A stretch of DNA of 64,000 bases from assembly GCF_003595195.1 (NCBI RefSeq), contig NZ_CP032418.1, positions 1,872,501 through 1,936,500 of the forward strand, in the 5' to 3' direction. The first letter of the stretch is position 1; every line of letters starts with the position of its first letter. A program made the translations under genes and the position numbers. The stretch is from Paenisporosarcina cavernae (GTDB lineage: Bacteria; Bacillota; Bacilli; Bacillales_A; Planococcaceae). Positions 9,007 through 55,133 of this stretch are shown piece by piece. The notes under the pieces are model-generated. The model did no database searches. It had not been told where the DNA came from and saw nothing but the letters and a program-made list of their open reading frames with translations.

Positions 9007-9369
9007 TTATGCCTGTTTCACTTCACCAAGATAGATTGCAATGAGTTCTTCTACTCGATTTCGAAGACGAACATTTAAGTACCTACGTCGATCTTCAAAC
9101 CCATTGTAGTTAAATACATATTCCGTAAACGTATCATCATGCGTTCCTTTTAACAGCTGCATACGGTGATTCCGAGCATACTGCTTCGATTCCTTTAGCT
9201 TTTGTTGGGCTTCTTTAATCGCGTGATCCATCAAATGCATGTAAGGCCTCTTCAATTTGAAGGGGCTTTTTTCCATGATGAGGCGGTCCCTTTCCAAAAT
9301 CGTCAATACCATTGGCAAATAAATCAAATTCTCAAAATACGGCAAGCTTTCCTCAGGTAATAACGGCAT
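9007..9369 (-). CDS. yhjD: YhjD-like SOS-regulated protein
   Basis: 120 residues, alpha-helical, soluble, no signal peptide. The pattern (FENLIYLPMVLTILERDR, SPFKLKRPYMHLMD, VFNYNGFEDRRRYLN) matches my recollection of B. subtilis YhjD, a protein of unknown function next to comK. The ribosome binding site is AGGAGGAG. A perfect LexA box lies 20 bp upstream of the ATG, consistent with yhjD being in the B. subtilis LexA regulon and supporting the assignment. The stop codon is 1 bp from the convergent comK stop, with no terminator between. Confidence 0.72.
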   Translation of the reverse strand: MPLLPEESLPYFENLIYLPMVLTILERDRLIMEKSPFKLKRPYMHLMDHAIKEAQQKLKESKQYARNHRMQLLKGTHDDTFTEYVFNYNGFEDRRRYLNVRLRNRVEELIAIYLGEVKQA

Positions 9370-9402: not shown

Positions 9403-9498
9403 TATTTGTATTCTTTATTCTACTCCGTTTTTTAAAAAATGCAAGTCGCGAAAAAAATATTTCCCCGGAAATAATTGTGGAGAAATGTCGAAGTTAAG

Positions 9499-10020
9499 TT
9501 GTCTTCATGTTTCTGGTAAGTGTCCTAATGTTTTTGCAAAGTGTCCTAATGTTTCCGCATAGTGTCCTAATCATTCGGAAAAGTGTCCCAATGTTTCTCG
9601 AAAGTGTCTCAATGTTTCTCGAAAGTGTCCTAATGTTTCTCGAAAGTGTCCCAATGTTTCTCGAAAGTGTCCTAATGTTTTCGCAAAGTGTCCCAATGTT
9701 TCTCGAAAGTGTCTCAATGTTTCTCGAAAGTGTCCCAATGTTTTCGCAAAGTGTCCTAATGTTTCCGAATAGTGTCCTAATCATTCGGAAAAGTGTCCCA
9801 ATGTCTCCTCAAAGTTTCTCAATGTTTCTCCCAAGTGTCCTAATGTTTCTCGAAAGTGTCTCAATGTTTCTCGAAAGTGTCCTAATGTTTTCGCAAAGTG
9901 TCCCAATGTTTCTCGAAAGTGTCCTAATGTTTCTCGAAAGTGTCCTAATGTTTCCGCAAAGTGTCTCAATGTTTCTCCCAAGTGTCCTAATCCCATTGGA
10001 AAGTGTCCCAATCAATTCCT
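9499..10020. repeat. Phased tandem array A, about 25 units of 21 bp
   Basis: Units start at 9520 and every 21 bp without a single slip to 10003 (24 starts), with a degenerate unit at 9499. Each has a constant 10 bp, GTGTCCTAAT with C/T changes at two positions, and a variable tail ending in AAA (commonly GTTTCTCGAAA, GTTTTCGCAAA or CATTCGGAAAA). A second-order repeat of 10 units (210 bp) is visible: the CATTCGGAAAA units at 9562 and 9772, and the flanking units, recur at that offset. It fills the gap between yhjD and the aldehyde dehydrogenase terminator. The long open frames across it arise only because 21 is a multiple of three. Confidence 0.93.
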
Positions 10021-10070
10021 CCTTACTATTTTTGCGCATTTTTGAATTAACATACACTTCGCTATAAATG

Positions 10071-10114
10071 AAAAAATGCCTCTTTCATGGGGTCACCATA
10101 AAAGAGACATTTTG
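10071..10114. terminator. Terminator of the aldehyde dehydrogenase gene
   Basis: AAATGCCTCTTT pairs with AAAGAGACATTT. A-rich and T-rich ends make it usable in both directions. It lies just past the stop codon of the minus-strand gene. Confidence 0.75.
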
Positions 10115-10121
10115 CGCTATG

Positions 10122-11510
10122 CTATTTCATCACTTTGCGAATTAATCCTAATTTATTCCCGTATGGTGGGAACAATACTTTGAGTGGAAATTTCGTTCCT
10201 TTTTGGACGATTGATTTGGCATGAGTAAACGTTTCAAAGCTATATTTGCCGTGGTATGCATTCATGCCTGATTGTCCGACACCACCAAATGGCAGTCGTG
10301 TGTTTCCGACGTGTGTAAGGGTATCGTTAATACATCCTCCGCCAAACGATAATTCGTCTAAGAAATACGAGATCGCCCCGTCGTTTTCCGAGAAGAAATA
10401 CGCAGCGAGTGGTTTCGGTAATTTCCGAATCTTGTCGATTGCTTCTGGTAAATGGTCAAATACTAATATGGGAAGAATTGGCCCAAAGATTTCATCTTCC
10501 ATTGCGGCTCCAGACCAAGATGCTTCTTCGATGATGGTTGGTTCAATGTATAAATCCGCTTCGTCCACTTTTCCACCGTAAACGCGACCATACGATTCTA
10601 ACTCAATAATTTCTTTTAGTCGTTTGAGTTGTTTTTCATTTACAATACGGCCGTAATCCGGACTTTGTTGGACGTCGCTTCCATAAAATTCGTGAATTGC
10701 TCGTTTTAATTCTTTGATAAACTTTTCTTTGACCGATCGATGGACGAGTACGTAATCCGGAGCGACACATGTTTGTCCAGCATTCACAAATTTCCCCCAC
10801 ACGATTCGATCCGCAGCGACTGCTAATTTTGCTGTGTGATCAACGACTGCTGGACTTTTCCCACCTAATTCTAGCGTGATAGGTGTAAGTCGTTCCGATG
10901 CCGCTCTCATGACTATTTTTCCGACCCCAACACTTCCAGTAAAGAAAATATAATCAAAAGGTGCATGAATAAGTGCACTAGTTTCGTCTCGCTCACCCTC
11001 TACTACTTGTATGTAATGAGGTTCAAACGTTGACTCGATAATACTGCGTATCACTTTTACGACAGTTGGTGTCGATTCAGAAGGTTTGACGATGGCACAG
11101 TTCCCACCAACAATTGCCCCTAACAATGGTTCCATCACCAGTTGGAACGGGTAATTGAATGGACCAATTATTAAAACACTTCCATATGGTTCACGGATAA
11201 TAAAGCTTTTAGCAGGCATGAGCGTAATCGGCGTACTCACTGATTCTGGTTTCATCCACTCTTCAACATTTTTTAGCATGTAAGAAATGCTGTCGTACAC
11301 AATGCCAATTTCTGTTCCATAAGATTCAAAACCGCTTTTTCCTAAATCTTGGTGCAGTGCGTCCAAAATCGCTTCCTCATGATTTTGGATAGATACACGT
11401 AATTTGAGCAAACTAGCTTTACGAAACTCCACTGATTTTGTGGCACCTGTATAAAAATAGTTTTTTTGCTTGGTGATCATGTTTTCAACATCTGAAGCTG
11501 TAAATAGCAT
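10122..11510 (-). CDS. NAD(P)-dependent aldehyde dehydrogenase (class 3, YwdH-like)
   Basis: Oxidises aldehydes, probably aliphatic or fatty, to acids. Started at the ATG at 11510 (MLFTASDVENM), which has GAGGAGTGATGAC upstream, it is 462 residues; the open frame extends 21 codons further without a ribosome binding site. Visible are the nucleotide-binding loop FTGSVGVGK, the catalytic-base motif LELGGKSP and the nucleophile motif GQTCVAPDY. A C-terminal extension (KFPLKVLFPPYGNKLG) is typical of the class 3/YwdH group. It is monocistronic. Array A lies immediately downstream. The natural substrate cannot be read from sequence. Confidence 0.92.
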   Translation of the reverse strand: MLFTASDVENMITKQKNYFYTGATKSVEFRKASLLKLRVSIQNHEEAILDALHQDLGKSGFESYGTEIGIVYDSISYMLKNVEEWMKPESVSTPITLMPAKSFIIREPYGSVLIIGPFNYPFQLVMEPLLGAIVGGNCAIVKPSESTPTVVKVIRSIIESTFEPHYIQVVEGERDETSALIHAPFDYIFFTGSVGVGKIVMRAASERLTPITLELGGKSPAVVDHTAKLAVAADRIVWGKFVNAGQTCVAPDYVLVHRSVKEKFIKELKRAIHEFYGSDVQQSPDYGRIVNEKQLKRLKEIIELESYGRVYGGKVDEADLYIEPTIIEEASWSGAAMEDEIFGPILPILVFDHLPEAIDKIRKLPKPLAAYFFSENDGAISYFLDELSFGGGCINDTLTHVGNTRLPFGGVGQSGMNAYHGKYSFETFTHAKSIVQKGTKFPLKVLFPPYGNKLGLIRKVMK

Positions 11511-11562
11511 GTCATCACTCCTCTGTGTTAGTACTAGTTTATCCATTTCTTGCCTACTACGC

Positions 11563-11588
11563 AAAAAAGACACCTGTTGCAGGTGTCA
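11563..11588 (-). terminator. Terminator of cotJABC
   Basis: Minus-strand GACACCT / AGGTGTC hairpin with a five-base loop followed by TTTTTT. It overlaps the last codon of cotJC. Confidence 0.8.
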
Positions 11589-29989: not shown

Positions 29990-30422
29990 TCCATCACCGA
30001 ATTCGACAAGTTAATCACCGCAAATCGAAGTTAACCACCCAATCGCACGAGTTAACCACCGCAAATCAGAGTTAACCACCCAATCGGCGTACTTAATCAC
30101 CCTAACATTAGGATAATCCATTACTTCGACGACTGCTGAATGGCGAGTCTACTATTCAACGTCAATCTGGTCAATCACCGAATTCGACAACTTAATCACC
30201 GCAAATCAGAGTTAACCACCCAATCGGCGAACTTAATCACCCTAACATTAGGACAATCCATTACTTCGACGACTGCTGAATGGCGAGTCTACTATTCAAC
30301 GTCAATCTGGTCAATCCCCGAATTCGACAACTTAATCACCGCAAATCGAAGTTAATCACCCAATCGCTCGGGTTAACCACCGCAAATCAGAGTTAATCAC
30401 CCAATCGCCGTACTTAATCACC
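29990..30422 (+). repeat. Phased array E (TTAAYCACC core, alternating 21/20 bp)
   Basis: The 9-mer TTAATCACC/TTAACCACC (or TCAATCACC) starts at 29990, 30011, 30031, 30052, 30072, 30093; 30171, 30192, 30212, 30233; and 30311, 30332, 30352, 30373, 30393, 30414. Within each block spacing strictly alternates 21, 20, 21, 20. The spacers also alternate, between a GCAAATC type and a CAATCG type, so the real unit is about 41 bp. Two copies of a 78-bp interruption contain TTAGGAYAATCC, which resembles the core of the other arrays. No coding frame is credible. Confidence 0.9.
30061..30340 (+). repeat. 140-bp tandem duplication inside array E
   Basis: 30061-30200 and 30201-30340 are nearly identical (only a handful of substitutions, e.g. 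GGCGTAC versus GGCGAAC and GGATAATCC versus GGACAATCC). A partial third copy follows from 30341. This is a recent duplication or copy-number change of a multi-unit block. Confidence 0.92.
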
Positions 30423-30454
30423 CTAACATGAGGACACTCTCCATCCATTTCCAA

Positions 30455-35801: not shown

Positions 35802-35930
35802 TGCGTACCTCTTTCATATAAAAGGATTTTTTTAACCTATTCGATAAAAATGGGAAAATCCCTTTAATTGGAATTTGAATGTTAACATAGCTCGAAATAC
35901 TTTCGTTTTTTATGGAAAAATTTGGCTCAT

Positions 35931-36056
35931 TGCATGTTTTTAGCGTATAATAACAGGATATTTCTAATTTCTGCATGTTTTTAGCGCTCGTTGACAGGAT
36001 ATTTCTGTTTCTTGCATGTTTGCGCCCGATTTTTGCATGTTTTACCTGTCCTCCTT
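35931..36056. repeat. Phased array F (two alternating cores, 41-bp period)
   Basis: TGCATGTTT at 35931, 35972, 36013 and 36034, and ACAGGATATTTCT at 35953 and 35994. Each core repeats at 41 bp (last TGCATG step 21). The two cores alternate about 20 bp apart. After both full copies the TGCATGTTTTTAGCG stretch is extended. It lies between the lipoprotein gene and the lcfB terminator. The AGGATA core recalls AGGACA in other arrays. Confidence 0.78.
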
Positions 36057-46261: not shown

Positions 46262-46475
46262 ATAAAGATACTTACTTCATTATTAGGATACTTTATGTAG
46301 TTATTAGGACACTTTGCGCGATTATTAGGACACTCTCCGCGATCATTAGGACACTTCGCGCGATTATTTGGACACTCTCCGCAATCATTAGGACACTCTC
46401 CGCGATTATTAGGACACTTTGCGTAATTATTAGGACACTTTATGTGATCATTAGGACACTCGCGTCATTATCCTA
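46262..46475 (+). repeat. Phased tandem array B, TTAGGACAC core, 21 bp
   Basis: TTAGGA(C/T)AC starts at 46283, 46304, 46325, 46346, 46367 (TTTGGACAC), 46388, 46409, 46430 and 46451, all exactly 21 bp apart, with a decayed unit at 46262. The 12-bp spacers are TTTGCGCGATTA-like, usually containing CGC. The core is the reverse complement of array A's GTGTCCTAA. It fills the space between the hemY terminator and the yhgD promoter. No ribosome binding site for the open frame across it. Confidence 0.92.
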
Positions 46476-54887: not shown

Positions 54888-54911
54888 AATGGAAAGATTG
54901 TGCGGAAAATG

Positions 54912-55133
54912 GGACATTTTTTGGCGACATTAGGACACTTTTTGGCGACATTAGGACACTTCGCGTCAACTTTAGGACACTTCGCGTCAACTTCAGGACA
55001 CTTCGCTTCAACTTCAGGACACTTTTGCCGGACATTAGGACACTTTCACCAAACATTAGGACACTTCGCGTCAACTTCAGGACACTTCGCCTCAACTTCA
55101 GGACACTTTCTTCAATACACAAGAACACTTTCC
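54912..55133 (+). repeat. Phased tandem array C, AGGACAC core, 21 bp
   Basis: GGACA starts at 54912, 54933, 54954, 54975, 54996, 55017, 55038, 55059, 55080 and 55101, exactly 21 bp apart, and a decayed unit follows near 55122. The core is T(T/C)AGGACACTT; spacers are CGCGTCAAC, TTGGCGACA or CACCAAACA types. It lies directly after the yhaH terminator and ahead of hpr. Plus-strand orientation of AGGACAC, same strand as the flanking genes. Confidence 0.92.

Follow-up and report, generated by a model that had tools for sequence, protein, structure and literature searches.

Array A and its surroundings

The window analysed here comprises 64,000 nucleotides of Paenisporosarcina cavernae with a GC content of 40%, equivalent to positions 1872501-1936500 of a genome that forms a single contig with 2,537,131 bases (2.54 Mb), and its profile matches include ComK and CotJB, which indicate a spore-former of the Bacillales. 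At positions 9499-10023 (genome 1881999-1882523) the window carries array A, a run of 25 tandem 21-bp units on the plus strand with the core GTGTCYYAAT and a second-order repeat of ten units. The array is bordered on one side by an open reading frame (ORF) of 120 amino acids on the minus strand (9007-9369) without Pfam match, beyond which a comK-type gene is located, and on the other side by an aldehyde dehydrogenase gene, equally on the minus strand (10122-11573). That array A contains no gene, as proposed in an earlier note on this DNA, is supported. The about 25 units of 21 bp without insertion or deletion described there correspond to the 25 consecutive units found, and the core described as constant is exact in 23 of them, in the variants CCT (12 units), CCC (7) and CTC (4), with two units deviating, namely the first (TTGTCTTCAT) and one in the interior (GTTTCTCAAT). 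In the last unit the tail no longer resembles the tails of the other units; altogether, the units fall into 16 different sequences and their 11-nt tails into 12. The higher-order repeat of ten units was recovered as a mean identity of 0.867 at unit lag 10, the highest among unit lags 1-15, with the remaining lags giving 0.739-0.798 and with 4 of the 15 unit pairs ten apart being identical. Tandem Repeats Finder assigned a score of 592 to positions 9500-9991, and as the reversed-pattern control had 0 matches in the genome, the pattern of array A lies far beyond chance.

A conserved part alternating with a variable part is equally a feature of CRISPR loci. The variable part of array A is, however, only approximately 6 bp long and recurs within the array, unlike the unique spacers of tens of bases, so that a CRISPR reading was rejected in agreement with the note.

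While array A is real, the scope of the note was too narrow, as the window contains two more arrays with the same core in reverse orientation. Array B (46262-46459, minus strand, approximately 10 units) is situated between the start of a TetR-type gene and the end of an amine-oxidase gene, and array C (54908-55109, minus strand, approximately 10 units) between a ytxH-like and a MarR-family gene; in array C the first unit is degenerate and several units read TTCAGGACA. Arrays of similar pitch with different cores also occur in the window. Array D (29990-30440, outer limits set by eye) belongs to a 20-bp family (TTAATCACC/TTAACCACC) and has a second-order repeat of 140 bp, which includes single array-A-type words of the ATTAGGACA type. 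A small array of another family with the word TTGCATGTTT and a 41-bp period is present at 35930-36021, and CCAGGACAAAA and GGACAAAAT words at a 21-bp lag are found in the intergenic gap from 1765 to approximately 1870 (genome 1874265 and 1874330).

A dispersed family with a near-fixed core

Throughout the 2.54-Mb genome, the core and the pitch of array A recur in 24 arrays with approximately 337 units, including the three arrays of the window. A two-unit pattern with at most one mismatch gave 162 forward and 125 reverse matches in the genome, with 0 for the reversed control. Chaining of units in sampled genome stretches assembled 23 arrays with 313 units, which account for 141 of the 162 forward and all 125 reverse matches, and a 24th array at 2010277-2010790 with approximately 24 units accounts for the remaining 21 forward matches; looser patterns gave slightly more matches in the same genome (137 reverse with one pattern, 166 and 129 with another), beyond the set assigned to the 24 arrays. 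With 24 arrays present, array A is not the chance local expansion that the note had envisaged for a core without further arrays in the genome. Of the 290 steps counted in 23 arrays, 284 amount to 21 bp, with 6 of the 23 arrays showing one step of 20, 22 or 43 bp, and the copy number reaches up to 36. The core is not palindromic, and the units within an array all run in one direction.

Among the 313 units, the nine positions of AAGTGTCCYAATGTT, that is the A at position -1, GTGTC and the AAT past two pyrimidines, are occupied by one base in 95-99%, values slightly inflated by the threshold of 8 of 10 core positions at which units were gathered; one 43-bp step in this collection passed over a unit. 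The first core pyrimidine is C in 90% of units and the second is C or T, and the G and T after the core are conserved to 86% and 84%, respectively. Spacer positions 13-17 carry little information (0.09-0.39 bits), and positions 14-17 have a GC content of 65-81% compared with 40% for the window. In 20 arrays with at least seven units, interior units compared between arrays differ in 1.6-5.5% of pairs at the nine core positions and in 60-73% at positions 13-17, the latter being near saturation, while pairs within an array differ in 0.9-5.3% and 37-55%, respectively. The spacer mix is peculiar to each array, and concerted evolution through duplication of entire units is suggested by this. Taken together, a near-fixed core and near-random, GC-rich spacers homogenized within each array suggest a constraint on the DNA word combined with whole-unit duplication, and both the mode of growth and the constraint on the core put forward in the note are thereby supported.

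With an ORF cut-off of 90 or 110 amino acids, the 22 gaps with array-A-type arrays were classed as 13 tandem, 6 convergent and 3 divergent and the gaps with other-family arrays as 17 tandem, 6 convergent and 0 divergent; with a cut-off of 130 amino acids divergent gaps were rarer with arrays than without (3/45 versus 61/302; p = 0.037), the gap of array A itself being classed as tandem at the lower and as convergent at the higher cut-off. In tandem gaps no consistency between array and gene direction was observed (7 same, 6 opposite), and orientation of the arrays by transcription was rejected on these numbers. If the origin is placed near position 1 and the skew is taken to switch somewhere between 0.97 and 1.26 Mb, GTGTCC resides on the presumed leading strand in 18 of 24 arrays (p = 0.023), or in 16 of 22 with split arrays merged (p = 0.052), a hint of a replication-strand bias that is marginal.

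Occurrence in relatives and sequence collections

The array-A core pattern was found in 0 of 8 genus mates, one of which is 81% complete, and among 260 other genomes of the family there was one single, chance-like match with two mismatches. The array-A family thus appears to be limited to the species with respect to these genomes, and as it is absent from close relatives, no genus-wide function rests upon it. The expectation of the note that relatives might share the arrays consequently fails for the core in the 8 genus mates and holds insofar as sampled relatives possess 20-21-bp arrays with other cores. At the array A locus, the best loci of the 8 relatives show no 21-bp array; in the four relatives inspected the gap is apparently followed by another gene in place of the aldehyde dehydrogenase gene, presumably of the ABC1/UbiB type. 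In the gap equivalent to that of array C, the MarR-type gene is present in 8 of 8 relatives and the array in 0 of 8, with the ytxH-like gene adjoining the MarR-type gene in 7 relatives and with a terminator and a promoter recognized by eye on the flanks of the gap in the relatives' sequences inspected. In one relative (L196, G008), the homologous gap upstream of the MarR-type gene harbours a longer GC-rich insertion that resembles a dispersed repeat by eye.

In the GTDB contig collection, a search of which may omit the window's own genome, the exact three-unit pattern (CCY) matched two loci, both from the cyanobacterium Tychonema sp. BBK16. These are short ATTAGGACAC arrays with a 21-bp pitch (L031 2915-2966 and L032 7497-7548), and as members of the family they were set aside as probably due to chance on a rough estimate. 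Array A DNA had no match among 72,556 plasmid and 50,697 phage records, and a plasmid or phage origin was rejected since such matches are missing. A single IMG/VR match (L081) consists of one word pair in GC-rich DNA and looks like chance.

Arrays with the same pitch and different cores

Judged from the sequence, the array-A family is one among many families of the genome with differing cores. Tandem Repeats Finder, applied to 1.25 Mb of the own genome in stretches partly chosen for array-A-type arrays, detected 43 intergenic array loci; 34 of these have a period of 20-21, including 11 of the array-A family, and without that family the proportion is 23 of 32. In 0.8 Mb from three genus mates 14 of 23 intergenic array loci have a period of 20-21; in all these counts intergenic regions are delimited by a crude ORF rule and arrays under spurious ORFs are missing. 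Other core words are TTCTATCGTGCAAC, CCCATAGAA, GGTGATTAAC, CGTAAGATAAC, GTGCGAT, GAGAATCGATC and TTGCATGTTT, among others. Furthermore, six-mers in own intergenic DNA recur at lag 21 with 16.0 per 10 kb versus 1.3-6.7 at other lags, the arrays then known being masked, and in the unmasked intergenic DNA of relatives with 9.8 per 10 kb. Own coding DNA shows no excess at lag 21 (2.23 versus 1.54-2.33 at other multiples of three). A lag-21 repeat is present in 89 of 447 own intergenic regions, whereas the remaining lags average 25.1 regions (z 11.2). The signal is weak in three relatives (z 1.7 in G001, 1.0 in G005 and 2.4 in G006), with G001 reaching z 3.0 at lag 20, and 250 kb of Escherichia coli K-12 show no lag-21 excess (3 of 99 regions versus 5.2).

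In small samples from four other genera, a 21-bp array with 5.9 copies was identified in one genome (G010). In these samples another genus of the family (G190) carries a 41-bp (2 x 20.5) array with 9.3 copies (L182 1-376), the CTATGAGCGGTTCC part of which resembles, by eye, the CTATAAGCG mini-arrays of the own genome. A tandem repeat with a period of 132 bp and 4.7 copies at genome positions 2332589-2333195 (L111) is presumably protein-coding.

Helical periodicity, flanks and palindromes

A common architecture becomes visible among arrays with unrelated cores. In 35 other-family arrays of whole-number pitch (23 own and 12 from relatives, those with a pitch of 20.5 or 41 bp being left out), 0.258 of the power in the first seven harmonics of the GC/AT signal falls on the 10.5-bp harmonic, compared with 0.141 +/- 0.021 in column-permuted arrays; 0 of 500 permutations reach the observed share. 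The value is 0.262, equally reached by 0 of 500 permutations, with one array per family (26 arrays, the families being delimited by eye), and for the relatives' arrays alone 3 of 500 permutations reach the observed level. Taken separately, the array-A family shows no significant 10.5-bp harmonic (0.336 versus 0.152 +/- 0.115; 31 of 300 permutations reach it). Intrinsic curvature, predicted from wedge values and compared with permuted arrays, was weakly above the controls (mean z 0.78, 17 of 21 positive) and was set aside as an array feature.

The GC skew is higher in the left than in the right flank in 23 of 24 array-A-type arrays, as exemplified by array A with +0.30 in the left 60-bp flank (9450-9509, which overlaps part of the first, degenerate unit) and -0.29 in the right one (10023-10082). 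The same drop is seen, in array lists picked by hand, in 22 of 25 other own arrays (p = 2.2e-5) and in 11 of 14 arrays of relatives (p = 0.013). For array-A-type arrays the skew reaches no further than approximately 80 bp ahead of the array and 60 bp behind it; in gaps without an array-A-type array, which may contain other-family arrays, the mean left-minus-right difference amounts to +0.20 if convergent and to -0.02 to +0.04 otherwise. As the drop is invariant under strand reversal, it is uninformative on orientation. Deamination was rejected as its cause, since the left flanks contain 374 G and 169 C, A and T being roughly balanced, for which loss of C to T alone is insufficient.

Palindromes of a kind first spotted in array flanks and subsequently tested are enriched near arrays: among intergenic regions of at least 200 bp, 12 of 43 with an array contain one, compared with 4 of 250 others (p = 2.7e-8). 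The palindromes comprise four related types, GATTTTCG...CGAAAATC, GATTTTGC..., CGTTTTCG... and CGTTTTGC.... Array-bearing regions are longer (median 495 versus 347 bp), and with length matched the excess is 7/23 versus 1/168 and 7/25 versus 3/164; without three segment-sharing loci it is 9/40 versus 4/250. An approximately 80-bp segment with the palindrome is, by eye, common to the arrays at 358, 416 and 435 kb. The GATTTTCG...CGAAAATC palindrome (20-23 bp) has 16 exact copies in the own genome, at 27588, 257218, 358689, 416128, 435733, 494884, 497695, 497740, 687083, 702025, 1727075, 1816088, 1955546, 2102625, 2319828 and 2523646, and none in the 8 genus mates. In the stretches examined, 8 of 13 copies are located at most 150 bp from an array or mini-array with a 21-bp pitch.

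Relation to known repeat systems

The closest known kind to the array-A family are the STAR elements of Staphylococcus aureus, which are described as direct repeats of intergenic DNA, made up of a short conserved word and locus-specific spacers, of unknown function and abundant in particular species at species-specific loci where they expand and contract locally (PMC3532100). The array-A family is likewise intergenic and combines a conserved word with locus-specific spacers. On the other hand, compared with the features given in that account, its core is AAGTGTCCYAATGTT and not the 14-bp STAR word T(G/A/T)TGTTG(G/T)GGCCC(C/A), its pitch is 21 bp with a variable spacer of approximately 6 bp versus at least 40 bp between STAR words, and it has sister families with other words. 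The arrays together with their palindromes are also reminiscent of the BIMEs of enterobacteria, which are interspersed intergenic mosaics. REPs are palindromic and associated with Y1 (RAYT) transposases, whereas array-A units are one-way direct repeats; the Y1/RAYT profile PF01797 has 0 matches in the own genome and matches in 5 of 9 genus genomes, and dissemination by a REP/RAYT system was rejected as a Y1 match is missing from the own genome.

The iterons of theta-replicating plasmids are direct repeats of approximately two helical turns with a conserved part, which lie on one face of the DNA and are found at an origin near a rep gene. The array-A repeats resemble them in being phased to helical turns by their 21-bp pitch and differ in that they occupy 24 chromosomal gaps, with array A having no plasmid match. 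Searches of the open-access literature, judged at the level of listings, brought up no account of these words or of two-turn arrays as a class.

Competing explanations

Array A is tentatively, and at somewhat less than even confidence, regarded as a member of a species-specific, dispersed family of intergenic direct repeats, a STAR/BIME-like 'two-turn' satellite, the word of which would be read as DNA. Nearly as open is an explanation by selfish or neutral minisatellites, in which the word is needed by the duplicating machinery; here the core could be the recognition or annealing word of a duplicating or dispersing process such as break repair, template switching or a nuclease, with no gain for the host, and this alternative is considered quite possible on its own account. 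It is in line with the species-limited spread, with the array-specific, locally homogenized spacers, with the unrelated insertion seen by eye in the array C gap of one relative, with the lower number of arrays in divergent gaps and with the coupling of arrays to hairpin-forming palindromes, palindromes of this kind being known to provoke breaks in other bacteria. One pitch and a common 10.5-bp alternation across many unrelated cores are, however, not expected from plain slippage, which yields arbitrary periods. Mobilization of the arrays as a whole, as miniature transposons with inverted-repeat ends moved by a transposase, seems quite unlikely. The model for such an event is BrickBuilt of Porphyromonas gingivalis, described as a MITE with a gapless 23-bp tandem unit that is always intergenic and has 19 copies in ATCC 33277, and with a leader and a tail with small inverted-repeat ends (PMC4596501). 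Such an origin would fit the 80-bp palindrome segment that three arrays have in common, but no leader, tail or terminal inverted repeat shared by the 24 arrays was seen by eye within 84 bp per side, pairing between the two flanks of an array does not exceed that of mismatched flanks, the one transposase family searched (Y1/HUH, PF01797) has no match in the own genome and array A DNA is unmatched in the plasmid and phage collections.

Iterons and multi-site operators present a conserved word in several phased copies, which is the property that would make the arrays repeated operators of one regulator governing adjacent genes. Such a role is very doubtful in view of a location mainly in tandem and convergent gaps in either orientation, a copy number of up to 36 and the unrelated neighbours of the three window arrays (aldehyde dehydrogenase, TetR, amine oxidase, ytxH and MarR). 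A transcribed repeat RNA titrating an RNA-binding protein, as suggested in the earlier note, or a small RNA is regarded as highly improbable and did not find support: the predicted folding of 20 arrays is less stable than that of column-permuted controls (mean z +1.72 sense and +1.14 antisense), the orientation relative to genes is inconsistent, and none of the window's arrays has an Rfam match, the sole match in the window being one tRNA. A seven-codon protein repeat is barely conceivable. Twenty-one base pairs are divisible by three, most arrays have an open frame on at least one of the strands and a 186-aa ORF spans array A; yet all three sense frames contain stops in 5 of 23 arrays and all three antisense frames in 2 of 23, including array A, the 20-, 22- and 43-bp steps disrupt the frame, and other families have a period of 20 or 41. 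Coding, structured RNA and REP-type transposition are thus disfavoured.

A possible mode of maintenance and its implications

Under the preferred reading of the word as DNA, the arrays expand and become homogenized through whole-unit (21-bp) duplication within a locus, as the pattern of units shows, and would occupy gaps that tolerate insertions, as shown for array C, the flanking genes of which are neighbours in 7 relatives. Selection might then keep the short word since something reads it as DNA. A 21-bp pitch would place all copies on one face of the helix, an arrangement that would suit side-by-side binding of a protein or complex along that face, or bending and wrapping of the DNA by it. 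BIMEs have known protein targets, for example gyrase, and by analogy to gyrase or HU on the BIMEs of E. coli a nucleoid- or topology-related factor can serve as a first guess for the candidate reader. The proposal of the note that the arrays may bind a DNA-organizing protein is a possible direction and the one preferred. Conservation of the core could instead mark the recognition site of the spreading machinery.

A wider and rather unlikely proposal is that these arrays represent an unnamed class of bacterial 'two-turn' arrays between genes, in which many families, each with its own word of approximately 10-12 bp and a pitch of 20-21 bp, coupled to palindromes and accompanied by a composition switch from G to C, would form helically phased platforms for binding or wrapping by a nucleoid or topology factor and would turn over species by species like eukaryotic satellites. 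Together with the sister families of differing core, the 24 arrays provide ready comparisons for finding the reader of two-turn arrays, if one exists, and the arrays could also act as strain-typing loci in the lineage. With a near-fixed core, free neighbouring bases and a pitch set by the helix, the family offers a direct handle on what retains repeats in small genomes.
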